Positions 23,685 through 30,364 of a stretch of DNA of 64,000 nt are shown here, one piece after another. Under the pieces are notes generated by a model. The model was not told the DNA's origin and made no database searches. It saw nothing but the letters and a program-made list of their open reading frames with translations. Every line of letters begins with the position of its first letter. The stretch's first letter is position 1. Made by a program: the position numbers and the translations under genes. Origin of the DNA: Actinobacteria bacterium HGW-Actinobacteria-2 (GTDB lineage Bacteria > Actinomycetota > Actinomycetes > Propionibacteriales > Propionibacteriaceae); contig PHEY01000008.1 of assembly GCA_002841335.1 (NCBI GenBank), positions 1-64,000 of the forward strand. Reading direction: 5' to 3'.

Positions 23685-24224
23685 ATGATTCGCTCCGCAC
23701 TCCCGGGCAGCCTGGCCGCCACGCTGGTCGCGGTGTCGCTGAGCGGTTGCCTCCCGGCCTCGACGGCGACCGCACCGACGGTCGACGATCCAGCGCCGGA
23801 GTCCGTGGTGGTGATCTCCACCGCCGACGGCGATACCTTCACCGGGCGCGACGCGAGCGGCGCAAAGGTGAAGGTGCGCATGCTCGGCATCGACGCCCCC
23901 GAGATGGCTCACAGCGGTCAGTCGGCCGAATGCGGCGCCAACGCGGCCGGTGCCCGGCTGCACGATCTGATCGTCGGCAAGACCGTCCGGCTGATCGCGG
24001 ATGGACGCTCCGACGATGTCGATAGGTACCAGCGTCGCCTGCGCTACGTCGAGGTGGACCAACGCGATGTCGCGCTCGTCCTGATCAGCGAGGGGCTGGT
24101 CGAGGCCTGGTATCCCACCTCGGAGCCGCGCCCCGAGCGGCACCCGGCCTATGCGGCGGCGCAGCGCTCAGCTCGCGATTCACGAGTGGGCTCCTGGCAG
24201 ACCTGTGACAAGCTGGGACGGTGA
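23685..24224 (+). CDS. Secreted thermonuclease-like (SNase) lipoprotein
   Basis: 179 residues. Lipoprotein signal (LAATLVAVSLSGC), then an SNase fold: DGDTFTGRDASGAKVKVRMLGIDAPEMAHSGQ contains the active-site Arg and Asp region, then DRYQRRLRYVEVDQRDVALVLISEGLVEAWYP. Staphylococcal nuclease relatives cut DNA and RNA with calcium. The ATG is 5 bases after the MFS gene and the end overlaps galM by 4 bases, giving a compact three-gene run. Confidence 0.85.
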   Translation: MIRSALPGSLAATLVAVSLSGCLPASTATAPTVDDPAPESVVVISTADGDTFTGRDASGAKVKVRMLGIDAPEMAHSGQSAECGANAAGARLHDLIVGKTVRLIADGRSDDVDRYQRRLRYVEVDQRDVALVLISEGLVEAWYPTSEPRPERHPAYAAAQRSARDSRVGSWQTCDKLGR

Positions 24225-25207
24225 ATCCAACGACGGGTCAGCTGATCATTCAGCGTGCCGACATCCGGCTCGAACTCCTCCCTCTGGGCGCGACCTTGCG
24301 CCGCCTCGACGTCGCGATCGGCGGCGGCTGGCGCAACATCACCTTGGGCCATCCGACCATCGCCGACTACCAGGACGATCCGGGTTACCTGGGCGCCAGC
24401 GTGGGCCGCTTCGCCAACCGCATCGACCACGCCCGGATCACCGTGGACGGCGTGACCCACGAGTTGGCCGCAAACCTGACGCCGAACCAGCTGCACGGCG
24501 GTCCGGGCGGATTCTCCACCCGGCCGTGGGACGTCCTCGGTGTCGGTGAGGACTGGGCCGAGTTCGGCCTGACCAGTCCCGATGGCGACCAGGGCTTTCC
24601 GGGCGAGGTCGTCGCACGCGCCCGGTACGAGGTGTTGGACGACGGAGTCGCGATCACCTACACGGCGACCACCTCGGCACCCACGGTGGTGAACCTGACC
24701 AACCACGCCTACTTCAATCTCGACGGCGAGGGCGCCGGCACGATCGAGGATCATCGACTGCTCGTGGACGCCGACGCCTTCACCGTCCTGCGAGACGACG
24801 GAGTGCCGACCGGCGAAATCCACACGGTCGAGGGCACCGGACTGGATCTGCGCACGCCGCAGCTGATCGGCGCAGCCCGAGACCAGGCGGTGGCGAAGGG
24901 CTGGGGACGCGACGGCGGAATCGATCACAACTTCGCCATCAACGGATCCGGAATGCGGCGGCACGCGGTGCTGTCCACCGCCGACCTCAGCCTGACGGTG
25001 TTCAGCGACTTGCCGGGGGTGCAGGTGTACACGGGCAATCACTTCGCCGGCGAACCAGGAACCTCGGGGGCGCCCTACCCGACCTTCGCAGGTGTGGCTC
25101 TGGAGACCCAGGCGTTCCCCGATGCACCCAATCACGACAACTTCCCCAGCACGGTGTTGCGGCCCGGCCAGGAGTATCGGACGACCACCCGCTGGCAGTT
25201 CACCTGA
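24221..25207 (+). CDS. galM: Aldose 1-epimerase
   Basis: 328 residues. It interconverts alpha and beta anomers of hexoses. Motifs: YLGASVGRFANRID (substrate Arg), NQLHGGPGGFSTRPWDV (catalytic His), VNLTNHAYFNLDGEG (second His), GIDHNFAI, and ETQAFPDAPNHDNFPSTVLRPG with the catalytic Glu region. All key residues appear present. GTG start overlapping the nuclease gene. It may serve sugar use, though no sugar transport genes lie nearby. Confidence 0.92.
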   Translation: MNPTTGQLIIQRADIRLELLPLGATLRRLDVAIGGGWRNITLGHPTIADYQDDPGYLGASVGRFANRIDHARITVDGVTHELAANLTPNQLHGGPGGFSTRPWDVLGVGEDWAEFGLTSPDGDQGFPGEVVARARYEVLDDGVAITYTATTSAPTVVNLTNHAYFNLDGEGAGTIEDHRLLVDADAFTVLRDDGVPTGEIHTVEGTGLDLRTPQLIGAARDQAVAKGWGRDGGIDHNFAINGSGMRRHAVLSTADLSLTVFSDLPGVQVYTGNHFAGEPGTSGAPYPTFAGVALETQAFPDAPNHDNFPSTVLRPGQEYRTTTRWQFT

Positions 25208-25262
25208 GCCGACTCGAGGTTGGACGGAGCGCCCATACCGGCCCTTCGTCACAGCTGTAACC

Positions 25263-25284
25263 CGACACGCCGACGACACGCCGA
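25263..25284. promoter_or_regulatory. Tandem 11-bp operator of small RNA gene A
   Basis: Two perfect back-to-back copies of CGACACGCCGA, preceded by GTAACC. The same pair occurs upstream of copy B. Direct repeats spaced by 11 bp are the typical site form of OmpR/PhoB-type response regulators. The centre is about 85 bases before the predicted transcription start. Confidence 0.7.
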
Positions 25285-25322
25285 TTCGCTCGAAACTTCT
25301 CGATTTTCCGGGTCAAAACCTC

Positions 25323-25351
25323 TTGCACCCCGGGTGGAACAGGACTAGAAA
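25323..25351 (+). promoter_or_regulatory. Sigma-70-type promoter of small RNA gene A
   Basis: -35 TTGCAC, 17-base spacer, -10 TAGAAA. The identical -10 context GGACTAGAAATCTG and a TTGCGG -35 with the same spacing occur at copy B. Predicted start near 25358. Confidence 0.7.
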
Positions 25352-25357
25352 TCTGTT

Positions 25358-25538
25358 TACCGGATCACTTCGGTGGTTCGGGGATCGGAAGCAGGAAGTC
25401 AGCCGACTGGCGGTTCGCCGCTGGAGCCCCCGGTGATGCGTGGGGTGTGTTGACTGGTCGCTTCTGGTGTATCGGTTCTGGCCATCACGTCAGGTCGAGG
25501 GAAGGCCCCGGAGACTCATACTCGCCGGGGCTTTTTCC
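25358..25538 (+). ncRNA. Structured small RNA, copy A (unnamed family)
   Basis: A transcript of about 180 bases is predicted between the promoter and an intrinsic terminator, with no credible ORF. Near the 5' end is a 9-bp hairpin with a UUCG loop (25360-25381). A purine-rich block reading GGAAGCAGGAAGTC follows. A C/G hairpin carries GTGATG in its loop (25433-25438), which can pair with CATCAC at 25483-25488 as a pseudoknot. The same layout, with pair-preserving changes, is found in copy B on the other strand. I do not recognise the family. It accounts for the gene-free stretch after galM; from 25541 to 25698 nothing else is seen. Confidence 0.7.
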
Positions 25539-25540
25539 CT
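25504..25540 (+). terminator. Intrinsic terminator of small RNA A
   Basis: GCCCCGG and CCGGGGC arms around a 13-base loop, followed by CTTTTT. The loop AGACTCATACTCG is identical in copy B. Confidence 0.85.
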
Positions 25541-25698
25541 TGTCCGACCAGCAATCCTCGCGCCAGCCGTTCACTCAGCGCTCGCCCGACCCACCGATTG
25601 CTCACCGACACACTCGACGCCCGCCTTAGGCACTCAACGCTCGCTTGAACGGGGCTCTCGACGCGCAGGCGAGCCCTCGGTGGCGGGGAGCGAGCCGA

Positions 25699-28185
25699 TC
25701 ACAGGCCCTGACGCAGCGCCTCGGCGAGCAACTCCTCGCGGCTGGTGGCGTTCAGCTTCCGGTAAAGGTTGGTGCGGTGGAACTTCACCGTGTTCACCGA
25801 CACGTACAGCTCTCGGGCGATCGCGGTGTTGGTCAGACCGCGCCGGACGCCGTCCAGCACCTCCAACTCACGCGTCGCCAGCCGCACTGCCCCGCGGCTG
25901 TCGTGATCGACCCCCACGTAGGCCGCGGCCAGGCCGAGGCTGCCCCGGACGATCGGCGCCACATTGGCAGGAAGTCGCTCGATCAGCGTGCCGATCTCGT
26001 CCGGCGAAGCCAACACCAGCGGCAGCGGCGCCGCCTGGTACTTCAAGGCAGCCCCGCCACGCACCAGCACGGCGATCGCGGTCGCCTCTTCGCCGGCACG
26101 CAGGTTGTTGACAGCGGTCAGCAGCGCCAACTGCCACGCCACGCGGGGGGCTGAAGGCAGCTCGGTGTCGGTGGGTAGCTCGGCTGTTCGAGCGGCACCC
26201 GTGCCCACCTGAATCATGCCCTCCAGCAGCCGGCGTCCCCACGGCGGCCAGCGGTGAGTGGCCCCCGGAGGCAACGAGCGGACATAGCCGGCCACCTCGG
26301 CCAATGGACGACCCCAGGATCGCCCGGTGGCCGCCATCACGATGATCTCGGCGACCATCGCGTAGCACCCCGGTGCCTCCGGATGATGCTGCCAGGCCGA
26401 CCAGCGCGGTGTGCTCAACACCTGGTCGATCAACTCGTCCAGACCTTCGCGGTTTCCGGTCGCCACCAGCGCCACGGCGCGCAGGTAGACCAGCATGGGC
26501 CAGTCGGTGGGATGGGGAAGGCGGAACATCGCGACTCGGGTGAAGGCCTCGGCGCTGGCGAAGTCGCCGCGGTCGAAGGCCTCGCCGCTGTCGATGACGC
26601 CGTGAATCATGTGGTCGAACTCGCGGTGGAACTGACGCGGCGCCAGTTGCACCGTCCTCAGCTCGGCCCGGGCGGTACCCAGGAAGACCGCGGCCATCCG
26701 CAGCGTGGAGATCAACGTGCTCAGTCGCAGCTCGCCCACGCCGCCGACCAGTTCGGGGCTGCGGCGCAACTGCGACAGCAATGCCTGGGCGATGCCGGAC
26801 ACCAGATCGATACGGCCGAGCTGGACCATTCCCTTGACCATGAGCAACGAGTCCGAAACGAACCCCGGCCCGATCAGCTCGGTCCACTCCTCCGGCTTGG
26901 TCTGGATCAACGTGGCCCAGCGAATGGTGGCGCGAATCGCCACCCCGATCTCACCGACACCCAACGCCAACGTCGCCGCCTTGGCCAGGTAGGACAGCTG
27001 ATCGCCGATGGTGCCGCCGATCGATCCGGACAGGACCGCCCGCTGGGCATCGACCAGCTCAGGATCCGCAGGCAGCTCACCGCGGTTGGGCAGCACCAAG
27101 GTCGCCACCACCAGGAGGTTCGAGTACTCCCGGAGCACCGCGGGGTCGGTGGCCACGAAGATCTCCAGCAGCAGGTCGGCATCGGCATCGGCCAGCTCCC
27201 ACAGCCAGTCGCCGGCCACCACATCGGCATCGGCCAGCGACTGGTTGGCCACCAGCATGGCCACCGCCAGCCCTGGCTCACCGCACTGCTGCGCACAATC
27301 GGCGATCAACGCCCGGTCCGCCTCCGCCACGGCGGCGTCCACCGGCCAAGCCTGCAAGAGGTGCCATCGCACGGCGGGGAACCACACGAACTGACGCGCC
27401 GCGCTCAGCCCCTGCCTGATGGTGCCCCACCCCATCCGCGCCATCCGCGAGAACAGGTAGTCGGCGCGTTCGCTGCCGTACAAGCGGGTGAGCAGGTCCA
27501 AGGTGATCGCCGGTACGCGGGCGAGTTGGCGGGTCTGAGTGTGGAACTCCGTAGCCCCTTCACGCTGGGGGGTCCATCCACCGACGGCCTGTTCGATGCT
27601 GATGGTGCCGGCCAGGCACTCCTCGCCGAACAGCTCGATGACCCGCTCCACCAGCATCGGAACGCCGTGGGTAGCCTCCAGGATCGCCCGGACGGTGGCG
27701 TCGGTAGCCTGCGGCAATGCCTCGGCCAGCATCGCCGACACTTCCACGCTGGTGTAGGCGAGTTCGGCATCATCGAGCACCTGGTGGCTCACCTGAGCGG
27801 CTACTGCCAGGTTGATCAACTGCTGGGCGTCGACCGCGGTCGCCACCAGGCGTAACCCCGGCAATGACGCCACCAGGTCGATCAGCGTCTTGTTGGCTTC
27901 CGCAGGCAGCTCGTCCATCCGCTGAACACCCAAAGTGATGGGATCGGAGGAAAGCGCAACGGCTTCGCGAATCGGGATGACGAAAGCATCCCAATCGTCG
28001 GTCTCGACCGTTTGTGCACCCACAGCAAAACCAGCAACCTGCAATTGATAAGCGAGTCGACCGGCCATTACTGCCGGGGAAAGTTGTCGGTGGTCAAAGT
28101 CGACCACCACTCTCCGACCGGCCATTTCCTGACTGGCCCACGCGTGGATCAGGGCGCTCTTATGGGTGCCGACGCCGCCTTCCAC
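25699..28185 (-). CDS. Large MalT/LuxR-type ATP-binding transcriptional regulator
   Basis: 828 residues from the GTG at 28185. Layout: N-terminal STAND-type NTPase region, helical repeat middle, and a C-terminal LuxR helix-turn-helix (ATRELEVLDGVRRGLTNTAIARELYVSVNTVKFHRTNLYRKLNATSREELL). The P-loop is odd: EGGVGTHKS has His where Gly is expected. The GTG has no ribosome site and cuts off the strand before the P-loop. The frame stays open upstream, and a CTG at 28248 follows AAGGAG by 5 bases, so the true start may be there (849 residues). The target is unknown; the gene converges with small RNA A. Confidence 0.85.
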   Translation of the reverse strand: MEGGVGTHKSALIHAWASQEMAGRRVVVDFDHRQLSPAVMAGRLAYQLQVAGFAVGAQTVETDDWDAFVIPIREAVALSSDPITLGVQRMDELPAEANKTLIDLVASLPGLRLVATAVDAQQLINLAVAAQVSHQVLDDAELAYTSVEVSAMLAEALPQATDATVRAILEATHGVPMLVERVIELFGEECLAGTISIEQAVGGWTPQREGATEFHTQTRQLARVPAITLDLLTRLYGSERADYLFSRMARMGWGTIRQGLSAARQFVWFPAVRWHLLQAWPVDAAVAEADRALIADCAQQCGEPGLAVAMLVANQSLADADVVAGDWLWELADADADLLLEIFVATDPAVLREYSNLLVVATLVLPNRGELPADPELVDAQRAVLSGSIGGTIGDQLSYLAKAATLALGVGEIGVAIRATIRWATLIQTKPEEWTELIGPGFVSDSLLMVKGMVQLGRIDLVSGIAQALLSQLRRSPELVGGVGELRLSTLISTLRMAAVFLGTARAELRTVQLAPRQFHREFDHMIHGVIDSGEAFDRGDFASAEAFTRVAMFRLPHPTDWPMLVYLRAVALVATGNREGLDELIDQVLSTPRWSAWQHHPEAPGCYAMVAEIIVMAATGRSWGRPLAEVAGYVRSLPPGATHRWPPWGRRLLEGMIQVGTGAARTAELPTDTELPSAPRVAWQLALLTAVNNLRAGEEATAIAVLVRGGAALKYQAAPLPLVLASPDEIGTLIERLPANVAPIVRGSLGLAAAYVGVDHDSRGAVRLATRELEVLDGVRRGLTNTAIARELYVSVNTVKFHRTNLYRKLNATSREELLAEALRQGL

Positions 28186-28389
28186 GAAGATCGTCGGTGT
28201 GGCTGCGTTCAGAAGTGCCAGCAGCCGCTTGCGGGTCGGTGGTGTCAGGTCAGCTCCTTGGCGGGTGAGCAGTCACAGGGCCTCTAGCTGAGTCATACGC
28301 GGCGGCGCCCCTCGCCATTGTGCCCGACGACAGCGGTCACGGGAACTCTGAACACCCAACATGACGAACTACTGTCAACCGCTTGTTGA

Positions 28390-28905
28390 TTATCGCGGCG
28401 TCGACACCGATAGAAGTCGAGCCGGATACCGGCGCATCACGACGATCGCGCCGCCAAAAAGCAGCCCCACCATCGGCATTGCCGACAACGAAAGATCCAC
28501 CACACCACCGGTCGGTTCGTCGGCGACACTCCGTCCGACCTGATCGAAGGGGGTGCCGTGGTCGGATCGCCGCATCGATCCGACCACGGACGTTTTTGGG
28601 GTGACCCGCGGGGACGGCAGGGTCACCCCGTCCGAGACTCCAGCGGCAGACGATCGCCATTGATCGACACCTTGGATCCCGGTGCTACCGAACGCGATCC
28701 CCACATGAGTGGCACTTCGTTGGGCCACGGAGGAAGCGTCCGGAAGGGGGCTAGCGGAAGCTGATTGGGCGCCCTTCACCGCGCCCAGAAGAAGCGCGAG
28801 CAGGGCGCCCAAGAGGGCAAGGAGGAGAACCATCCAGGAGCGGAGGGGTGTCCTTCGGCGCGGTGAGGACACCCCACGATCGTGCGATGCGGCCGGAACG
28901 GTCAC
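28390..28905 (-). CDS. Small protein with two membrane segments, unknown function
   Basis: About 171 residues from the GTG at 28905, with AAGGAGG nine bases upstream; longer starts cross non-coding sequence. A short basic N-terminus (SSPRRRTPLR), a leucine-rich helix (SWMVLLLALLGALLALLLGAV), a Ser-rich extracellular part, and a C-terminal helix (VDLSLSAMPMVGLLFGGAIVVM) ending in RRYPARLL. No domain recognised. It lies upstream of the MalT-like regulator on the same strand, with about 140 bases between. Confidence 0.6.
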   Translation of the reverse strand: MTVPAASHDRGVSSPRRRTPLRSWMVLLLALLGALLALLLGAVKGAQSASASPLPDASSVAQRSATHVGIAFGSTGIQGVDQWRSSAAGVSDGVTLPSPRVTPKTSVVGSMRRSDHGTPFDQVGRSVADEPTGGVVDLSLSAMPMVGLLFGGAIVVMRRYPARLLSVSTPR

Positions 28906-29136
28906 GTCACACTCCCTCCTTGAGGCCCCTCTTGCCTCGTGTTTGTCCGGCCCCCCGGCTACGGACGTGCCCGACTCTAGGTGGCGCGCTTCTACCGATG
29001 GGAGGCCTGCAACCCCGTTCCACCCTTCACCCACCCACCGCCCACCTGACTGCCTACCCGCCCCCCACCCGAGAACCCACTACCCCTTTCGGAGCGCCTA
29101 CCCGCGTCTGCGGACGGGCCCGCGCATGCTGGGCCG

Positions 29137-29559
29137 ATGAGTGCTGAGACTGTGCGTGCGGTGAGTGTCGACCGCGTCGGAGAGCGCCGATTCCGGGCCC
29201 GCAACGTCCGCGGTGGCGAGCTGATCTTCGGTGAAGGCGAGGATGCCGATTTCACTCCGGTGGAGTTGCTGCTGACCGCCCTAGCCGGCTGCTCGGCCAT
29301 CGATGTGGACTACCTGACGACCCGTCGCGCCGAACCGGAGAGCTTCGAGGTCGACGTCCGCGCCGACAAGCTGTCCGATGAGGCCGGCAATCACCTGGGA
29401 CCGATCGAGGTGCGCTTCACGGTGCGGTTCCCTGACGGCCCGGACGGCGATCGCGCCCGCGAGATGTTGCCGACGGCGCTACGGCGCTCCCATGATCGAC
29501 TTTGCACGGTGTCGCGCTCAGTCGAACTGGGCACCCCGGTGACCATGGTGGCCGACTGA
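29137..29559 (+). CDS. OsmC/Ohr-family protein
   Basis: 140 residues. OsmC fold with FTPVELLLTALAGCSAIDVDYL (first redox Cys) and RSHDRLCTVSRSVELGTPV (second Cys). The pair of cysteines is that of thiol-dependent peroxidases acting on organic hydroperoxides. ATG start; its promoter region 28906-29136 is shared with the divergent small membrane protein and is pyrimidine-rich, with no clear repeat. Confidence 0.88.
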   Translation: MSAETVRAVSVDRVGERRFRARNVRGGELIFGEGEDADFTPVELLLTALAGCSAIDVDYLTTRRAEPESFEVDVRADKLSDEAGNHLGPIEVRFTVRFPDGPDGDRAREMLPTALRRSHDRLCTVSRSVELGTPVTMVAD

Positions 29560-29572
29560 TCTGTCCCGGACA

Positions 29573-29752
29573 AGGGAAAAGGCCCCGGCGAGTATGAGTC
29601 TCCAGGGCCTTCCCTCGGAATCGACGTGATGGCCGAGACCGATCAGAAGCTACCAGCTGGTCTACCCCACATCACTGGGGTTGCCACGAGCCAAGAGCCC
29701 GACGCAGACCGACTTCCTTCTTCCGATCCGGGATCACCGAAGCGATCCAGTA
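29573..29752 (-). ncRNA. Structured small RNA, copy B (unnamed family)
   Basis: Inverted homologue of copy A, about 180 bases. The UUCG hairpin is at 29731-29748 (GGATCGC / GTGATCC). The purine block GGAAGAAGGAAGTC is kept. A perfect 6-bp ACCCCA/TGGGGT stem has exactly GTGATG as its loop (29670-29675), and CATCAC at 29626-29631 can pair with it. The 12-mer GGCCATCACGTC is identical in both copies. The gene lies convergent to OsmC and downstream of the MarR gene. Confidence 0.7.
29574..29610 (-). terminator. Intrinsic terminator of small RNA B
   Basis: On the minus strand GGCCCTGG and CCGGGGCC pair with one G-U, then TTTTCCC. The loop is identical to copy A. It lies 15 bases past the OsmC stop and may also end that transcript. 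Confidence 0.85.
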
Positions 29753-29758
29753 CGCAGA

Positions 29759-29787
29759 TTTCTAGTCCGTTCCAGCGACCCCCGCAA
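29759..29787 (-). promoter_or_regulatory. Sigma-70-type promoter of small RNA gene B
   Basis: On the minus strand: -35 TTGCGG (29787-29782), 17-base spacer, -10 TAGAAA (29764-29759). Confidence 0.7.
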
Positions 29788-29825
29788 GTAGTTTGGGGTG
29801 ACGTTTTTGGCCAGTTTTCGCAGTC

Positions 29826-29847
29826 TCGGCGTGTCGTCGGCGTGTCG
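29826..29847. promoter_or_regulatory. Tandem 11-bp operator of small RNA gene B
   Basis: Two perfect copies of TCGGCGTGTCG, the reverse complement of the pair at 25263-25284, at about the same distance from the promoter. Confidence 0.7.
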
Positions 29848-29878
29848 GGTTACAGATGTGAAGAAACGGACGAATCGG

Positions 29879-30364
29879 TCATTCCGACGACTTGGCGCGA
29901 GACATCGCCTCCAGGAAGATCTCCGAGCTGCGCCGGATCGCTTCCAGGTCTTCCACCGTCATGTTCTGGATGACCTTCATCATCGCCCGCTGAACCAGCG
30001 AGTCCATCTGCCGAATGAGCGCGCGACCTTCGTCGGTCAGATGTAACCGCCGGACGCGCCGATCCTCGTGGTCGTCCACCCGGGCCAACAGACCCTTCTC
30101 GACCAGGCGGTCGATCAGCCCGCTGGCGGTTGGTGCGCTCACTCCCAACCGCTCACCCAACTCATGGCCGGCCAACCCAGGCTCCTTGGCGATGAAGCCG
30201 AGGACCCGCAGCTGCTGCATGGTGAGGTCGGACGGATTCGGCGTCGGGCCGGCGATCGCCAGTGCTTCGTCATGGACTTTGCCCTGCAGTGTAAGGATGT
30301 CGGTGACCAAACGATTGCGTTCGGGATCCAGCCCGAGGGCGTCCAGGTCGACGATTGGGTGCAA
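29879..30364 (-). CDS. MarR-family transcriptional regulator
   Basis: 161 residues from a TTG at 30364, preceded by GGAGGG at 6 bases. Winged helix with MQQLRVLGFIAKEPGLAGHELGERLGVSAPTASGLIDRLVEKGLLARVDDHEDRRVRRLHLTDEG, including the wing DxRxR motif. It is divergent from the RND transporter, with about 100 bases between and two palindromes there, so it most likely represses the transporter and itself. Confidence 0.9.
   Translation of the reverse strand: MHPIVDLDALGLDPERNRLVTDILTLQGKVHDEALAIAGPTPNPSDLTMQQLRVLGFIAKEPGLAGHELGERLGVSAPTASGLIDRLVEKGLLARVDDHEDRRVRRLHLTDEGRALIRQMDSLVQRAMMKVIQNMTVEDLEAIRRSSEIFLEAMSRAKSSE

Follow-up and report, generated by a model that had tools for sequence, protein, structure and literature searches.

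The two genes described here, copies A and B, each stand alone and encode members of a structured RNA family present in several families of Actinomycetia. They lie in a 64,000-nt stretch of the genome of Actinobacteria bacterium HGW-Actinobacteria-2 (hereafter, the window), and the existence of the RNA family to which they belong is near certain. It is apparently a large family of actinobacteria, undescribed within Rfam 15 and the literature searched. The original prediction had posited two inverted copies of an undescribed structured small RNA gene, each made up, in the same order, of a tandem operator, a promoter whose spacer is 17 bases long, a structured transcript of about 180 nt and a terminator; the sites of the two copies as well as the parts and their order were confirmed (Table 1), and the terminator loops of A and B are identical, as had been claimed. 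The lack of a match in Rfam 15 and the covariation in the wider family support the reading as an undescribed structured small RNA, and so, strongly, does the search of related genomes with a new covariance model built from the copies. The further claim that the copies are free of ORFs stands in the sense that those crossing the copies are chance ORFs, nucleotide changes tracking base pairing.

Copies A and B face each other. Their predicted transcripts are 79% identical, and BLAST aligns the two copies at 73% identity across about 300 bases. The covariance model built from copies of the genus, R1, matches copy A at 25356-25545 (E 2.1e-49) and copy B at 29568-29754, both being among the sequences from which R1 was built. 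Each copy folds more stably than its shuffled versions (z -3.3 for A and -3.1 for B), with one of 200 shuffles folding as well in the case of A and two of 200 in the case of B. A simple sigma-70 consensus scan of positions 24900-30300 found no promoter and did not list the terminators of A and B; the predicted promoters of the two copies rest on conservation. Between the copies, at 28556-28589, lies a terminator-like hairpin of 14 pairs whose loop is unrelated, indicating that CUCAUAC, the terminator loop of A and B, is not a general terminator loop in the window. A probable third, divergent member of the family, ending near position 117713 of G000:C8 elsewhere in the same genome (L186:1100-1540), sits between genes for an AHSA1-domain protein and a methylpurine-DNA glycosylase (Pfam).

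Table 1. Features of copies A and B and their neighbouring genes in the window.
Feature	Position	Strand	Basis or remark
Copy A	25258-25545	+	
Copy A operator, two GACACGCC sites	25264-25271, 25275-25282	+	11 bp apart; match to WhiA core GAYACRCY
Copy A promoter: -35 TTGCAC, 17-base spacer, -10 TAGAAA	25323-25328, 25346-25351	+	Sequence; conserved in genus alignment
Copy A predicted transcript	25358-25540	+	Predicted start site
Copy A P1 hairpin, UUCG loop	25360-25381	+	Folding, covariation
Copy A P2/P3 long-range stems around P4 and P5	25384-25468	+	Folding, covariation
Copy A L5 GUGAUG, kissing loop 5' half	25433-25438	+	Kissing-loop alignment
Copy A L6 CAUCAC, kissing loop 3' half	25483-25488	+	Kissing-loop alignment
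Copy A terminator hairpin	25502-25534 (CUCAUAC loop 25515-25521)	+	Folding
Copy B	29568-29847	-	
Copy B operator, two GACACGCC sites	29839-29846, 29828-29835	-	11 bp apart; sequence search
Copy B promoter: -35 TTGCGG, 17-base spacer, -10 TAGAAA	29787-29782, 29764-29759	-	Sequence
Copy B predicted transcript	29572-29752	-	Predicted start site
Copy B L5 of kissing loop	29670-29675	-	Kissing-loop alignment
Copy B L6 of kissing loop	29626-29631	-	Kissing-loop alignment
Copy B terminator hairpin	29579-29611 (CUCAUAC loop 29592-29598)	-	Folding
Aldose epimerase gene (neighbour)	24221-25207	+	Pfam
LuxR-type regulator gene (neighbour)	25699-28185	-	Pfam
OsmC gene (neighbour)	29137-29559	+	Pfam
MarR gene (neighbour)	29879-30364	-	Pfam

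Covariation backs the predicted structure, which comprises a P1 hairpin with a UUCG loop, the long-range stem of P2 and P3, interrupted between the two by an internal loop and closing a junction, as well as P4, P5, P6 and the terminator P7. RNAalifold applied to 25 copies from the genus yielded 42 pairs, 22 of them with changes on both sides. When the structure is written out in full, with 55 pairs including a kissing loop, 93.2% of the cells in the genus alignment are paired, compared to 30-46% when the pairing is slid, and both-side changes occur at 22 of the 55 pairs. A wider alignment of 66 members at E <= 1e-8 was collected with R1 from 58 chosen sources, with 13 rows from the genus itself; here, both-side changes are found at 47 of 49 pairs, and 87.7% of the cells are paired against 35-51% for slid versions, in an alignment that is fitted to R1 and thus leans towards the structure of the model.

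The kissing loop between L5 and L6 is absent from R1 and nevertheless covaries. Within the genus, its GUGAUG/CAUCAC form is nearly invariant, so that the genus alone carries little information, but among the 66 members 94.6% of its cells are paired, with 33 both-side cells compared to 10.1 in shuffles. GUGACG/CGUCAC occurs in 21 rows and GUGAUG/CAUCAC in 13, alongside single forms including GUGAAG/CUUCAC, GUGUUG/CAACAC and GUGAGG/CCUCAC. All six pairs form in 47 of the 66 rows, and none in six rows that are aligned with gaps at this place. The signal comes mostly from one pair (C-G in 26 rows, U-A in 26); three pairs display both-side changes, a number met by 82 of 500 shuffles. Slides of -3 and +3 also pair well (89% and 80%), but with only 0-2 both-side cells.

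In the genus, DNA matches at E <= 0.001 were found in 17 of 30 genomes, that of the window included, some of them as fragments only. All 13 genomes with both directions on one contig carry a convergent pair, with 0.47-4.2 kb between the matches, and one (G011) has a third copy in the same direction as the second. Among the 12 pairs compared, identity is 87-98% in the five closest (0.5-1.8 kb) and 71-80% in the seven separated by 3.3-4.2 kb; in one genome (G007), the copies are identical over alignment columns 103-203, that is, the 3' half. The greater similarity of close pairs, together with this identical 3' half, suggests gene conversion. Four contigs in two genomes (G013:C33 and C39; G019:C70 and C115, loci L021 and L024) start inside RNA copies, as if the assembly had been broken by near-identical copies.

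At the level of the host family, 46 of 197 genomes contain an R1 match at E <= 0.01. Of 20 weak places checked, eight have the CUCAUAC loop and 12 lack it; we judge the latter to be false matches, so that the tally of 46 is probably too high. With the best match at E <= 1.2e-6, a cut-off chosen after the loops of the weak matches had been seen, 35 of the 197 genomes and 8 of 29 genera remain, and all 35 genomes have the heptaloop in a fetched locus. The pattern GGCCC-N5-ACTCATACT-N5-GGGCC, when searched over species genomes, identified at least 116 stretches, all actinobacterial among the matches listed, where four or five of the five inner bases can pair at all 127 pattern sites. A scan of 394 genomes of the class recovered 38 sites in 36 genomes, compared to none for the reversed pattern; because the pattern requires one stem sequence, this is a minimum count. 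Of the at least 116 loci, 77 were searched with R1, as was L186 (L078, L095 and L127, from the genus itself, and L147-L182 were left out). The search produced 103 matches at E <= 0.1; 52 of them, distributed over 47 of the 78 loci, reach at least 40 bits. About 27 bits are accounted for by the terminator alone (L110), and in some of the 47 loci (L069, L070, L071 and L113) only the ends are aligned. Nocardioides (L076, 66.8 bits), Terrabacter (L114), Knoellia (L105) and Janibacter (L122) provide clear cases of homology in the RNA body and Kribbella (L138, 45.3 bits) a weaker one, and in Nanopelagicales the R1 matches are near the level of the terminator. The terminator hairpin reaches beyond the RNA body, into Nanopelagicales and Frankiaceae. 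Tandem copies are frequent outside the genus (L073, L074, L117, L128, L133 and L141).

The claim that the RNA belongs to no known family was supported. No Rfam 15 family reached its gathering score in the window, matches at E up to 10 over each copy were weak and unrelated, and 18 loci of relatives yielded only two tRNAs at the gathering score. Weak terminator-type matches at relaxed E-values, such as sodF_sRNA and Ms_IGR-7, were rejected: in one relaxed search, the sodF match was to the other strand, and Ms_IGR-7 was matched without 32 of 40 model positions between its first stem. Among the papers listed in searches of the openly licensed literature, none appeared to describe the RNA, which is not proof of novelty; a search of that literature for ACUCAUAC returned, among the matches listed, no bacterial sRNA by title. 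The 6C RNA is an actinobacterial structured sRNA with C-rich loops; such loops were not seen here, and there is no match to its Rfam covariance model. CoRP of Corynebacterium is likewise a recently described actinobacterial structured RNA, set apart from the RNA of the window by its description rather than by sequence: it is reported to be 516 nt long, to have tRNA genes on its flanks and to have close homologs only in Corynebacterium (PMC11077062).

The terminator loop of the RNA is constant. CUCAUAC is present in all 66 rows of the wider alignment, of which 42 were fetched because of this motif, and R1, built from CUCAUAC copies, favours the loop; it is also present in 24 of the 24 rows that were not fetched by the motif, 13 of these from the genus itself. 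In these 24 rows, the closing pair is A-U in 21, U-A in two and C-G in one, and a 7-nt loop that stays constant while its closing pair varies speaks for the loop itself being recognized. All 24 display the features of a Met-type anticodon loop, namely, seven nucleotides, U33, CAU at positions 34-36 and a purine (A37), and the loop carries a U-turn signature (UCA). Two tRNA-Met(cat) genes were recovered among 30 of the 43 tRNA places of the host genome, both with the loop CUCAUAA. Position 38 is C in the RNA loop and A in both of these tRNAs, making the likeness six of seven rather than full identity. The RNA and the anticodon arms of tRNA-Met and tRNA-fMet thus have in common a 7-nt loop, C-U-CAU-A, on a stable stem, whereas the RNA loop ends in C instead of A, is not part of a cloverleaf and is located within a terminator.

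Hairpins with this loop are not confined to the RNA body of A and B, as follows from two loci (L169:1432-1460 and L176:3213-3241) where a CUCAUAC terminator hairpin directly follows a protein ORF (adenosine deaminase by eye). In L070, L077 and L182, the hairpin closes a series of other short hairpins, whose loops are UUCG or CUCG, in what seems to be a different long RNA, and four loci of Nanopelagicales (L075, L088, L118 and L134) contain a longer form with a GUGCUGGCGGGG-like motif before the CUCAUAC hairpin. Tandem CUCAUAC hairpins, 54 bases apart, were seen at L060:1684-1744. The number of CTCATAC occurrences counted in 12 genomes was not informative.

The second conspicuous feature of the two copies is the operator. 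The tandem operator GACACGCCGACGACACGCCG, with up to three mismatches allowed, occurs at exactly two sites in the 64 kb of the window, 25264-25283 (+) and 29827-29846 (-), compared to a mean of 0.03 in shuffles, and is present in the 25 aligned copies of the genus (26 alignment rows, two of which represent one copy), with one mismatch in the L028 copy. Each of its two sites, GACACGCC, matches the published core of the WhiA site, GAYACRCY (GACAC), and lies upstream of the promoter in both copies. WhiA of Streptomyces is reported to bind GACAC (PMC3781837). WhiA of Mycoplasma gallisepticum is reported to be an ATP sensor that recognizes GAYACRCY in the promoter of rpsJ and acts as a repressor of this operon (PMC11701221). 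At the rpsJ genes of the genus, GACACGCC is found 87-97 bp upstream of the QKIRI/DKIRI codons in 23 of the 25 readable loci (L316, unreadable, is left out of the count); of the two exceptions, L297 carries GACACACC and L318 has no site. Among 86 dereplicated members of the RNA family, 28 carry GACACGCC upstream and 36 carry CTGTGGAC, whereas 0.2 and 0.4, respectively, would be expected from 2597 control windows taken from these loci. The exact tandem operator is present in ten of the 86, several of them from the genus of the window, and the remaining 76 include 18 with GACACGCC and 36 with CTGTGGAC.

In the order, 43 of 196 genomes contain the composite pattern TGTGGACGACACGC, with 48 sites in all compared to five for the reversed pattern. 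Fourteen of the 30 loci fetched lead to a CUCAUAC hairpin, three to a whiB gene and three to a dnaB gene (Pfam check: two of the three whiB genes and one of the three dnaB genes, L267); the other 10 have no assignment, several falling within coding sequence. In L267-L269, TGTGGACGACACGC lies upstream of dnaB, the gene for the replicative helicase. In L290-L292, TGTGGACGACACGCC is located about 80 bp upstream of the whiB gene, which fits cross-regulation between WhiA and WhiB. As for the regulator itself, whiA is encoded in 27 of the 30 genomes of the genus, that of the window included; the three genomes without whiA (two of them incomplete) are also without the RNA, and seven (G009, G014, G022, G023, G025, G026 and G028) have whiA and no RNA match by DNA search or search with R1. 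The commonest motif upstream of the wider members is TGTGGA (1.79 versus 0.07 per 200 nt), which also resembles half a DnaA box, and WhiA may therefore not be the sole or general regulator. In the genus of the window, control of the RNA by WhiA through the tandem sites is likely, and the putative regulator looks growth-linked; against the WhiA reading, GACACGCC, the predicted WhiA site, is short.

Taken together, the loop and the operator lead us to favour, tentatively, the view that copies A and B represent a new WhiA-linked class of structured RNA which acts in trans through its Met-anticodon-like loop. Under this proposal, WhiA, alone or with a WhiB-type partner, would control the RNA in the genus via the two tandem sites, whereby the RNA level would follow the growth or energy state, as in the case of the rpsJ operon. 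The body of the RNA would keep the terminator hairpin exposed and stable and would present CUCAUAC in trans to a partner that recognizes Met-anticodon-like loops, candidates being MetRS, a tRNA-Met-modifying or tRNA-Met-cleaving enzyme and the AUG codon on the ribosome, and the RNA would thereby tune translation as a decoy or competitor. Reading of the loop in trans by such a partner is something we infer, and it is uncertain. Mimicry of tRNA-Met would explain the length and the sequence of the loop jointly and fits the link to the control of ribosomal proteins, but the likeness to tRNA is limited to the loop, CUCAUAC hairpins also stand at the ends of other transcripts and, with a motif of 7 nt, the Met reading could be a coincidence. 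Rather doubtful is the more elaborate proposition of a widespread actinobacterial RNA whose own terminator mimics the anticodon hairpin of Met or initiator tRNA and whose WhiA sites, shared with the S10 operon, couple the growth or energy state to translation.

The strongest rival, which we regard as possible and somewhat doubtful, is that the terminator hairpin serves as a shared handle for an RNA-binding protein (an actinobacterial chaperone or stability factor), its likeness to an anticodon being incidental. It owes this rank to the occurrence of the same hairpin at the ends of transcripts with other bodies, including those of L169 and L176, those of L070, L077 and L182 and the longer Nanopelagicales forms described above. 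In the host genome itself, a further CUCAUAC hairpin, on the minus strand and in the leader of the AHSA1 gene, precedes the probable third member by 337 bp. Across the fetched loci, many of them selected by the motif, 114 distinct hairpins close CTCATAC, compared to at most two for each of 60 permuted heptamers. The handle would, however, leave the exact 7-nt length and the CAU of the loop unexplained, and the protein is hypothetical.

A role as a base-pairing sRNA, which would block translation by annealing to GUAUGAG at start codons through a CUCAUAC seed, appears unlikely. The seed is complementary to AUG and its flanks, and GGAG-N-GTATGAG has a modest excess in the 30 genomes of the genus (95 sites versus 60 for the reversed pattern); in 30 loci, each from a different genome, such starts belong repeatedly to three genes (L240, L242 and L244; L251, L252 and L255; L237 and L238). 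No gene is found in more than three of these fetched loci, which are a subset of the sites, and there is no common target; in L240, L242 and L244, moreover, the start overlaps the upstream stop, which by itself favours ATGA. In the host genome, AGTATGAGT occurs only opposite the three RNA loops and at the start of an rpoZ-like ORF (by eye). The start-codon antisense role is the weaker explanation.

Binding to RNA polymerase, in a function like that of Ms1 or 6S RNA, is quite improbable. Such a function would suit the RNA, which stands alone, is structured and has a similar size, in view of the reports that 6S RNA has not been found in its phylum and that Ms1 was missing from some of the orders searched (PMC9130861). 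Ms1, considered as a candidate for its size and phylum, resembles the RNA of the window, as do MTS2823 and scr3559, in being a standalone structured sRNA of about 230-300 nt from the same phylum; it was rejected since both synteny and fold differ. Ms1 adjoins a gene for a HAD-IB hydrolase and forms a long hairpin with a central bubble, as described in PMC4191392 and PMC9130861, whereas the RNA of the window has other neighbours (aldose epimerase, LuxR, OsmC and MarR) and a multibranched fold with a kissing loop and the constant CUCAUAC terminator loop. None of 11 HAD-IB loci of relatives contains ACTCATACT, although one (L206) has a CTCATAC without a closing pair; the HAD-IB match in the host genome is below threshold, and four other members of the genus have one over the cut-off. 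Like 6S RNA, the RNA of the window is small and structured, with its own promoter and terminator, but the fold differs and the Rfam covariance models of 6S RNA match neither the window nor the loci of relatives. Finally, a palindrome acting at the level of DNA (a target of mobile elements or a recombination site) and transcribed by chance would account for the inverted pairs and for the greater similarity of closer ones, suggestive of gene conversion, but is highly implausible given that changes track RNA pairing through the body, kissing loop included, that promoter and operator are conserved and that no viral contig matched the exact pattern.

Few conserved structured RNAs of Actinobacteria are understood. 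The family described here, common to Propionibacteriaceae, Nocardioides, Kribbella and Intrasporangiaceae-type genera and absent from Rfam 15, would be one of the phylum's more widespread unassigned RNAs. The constant Met-anticodon-like loop raises the question of which partner reads it, and the WhiA-type operator raises the further question of whether WhiA controls an RNA besides the genes for cell division and ribosomal proteins.
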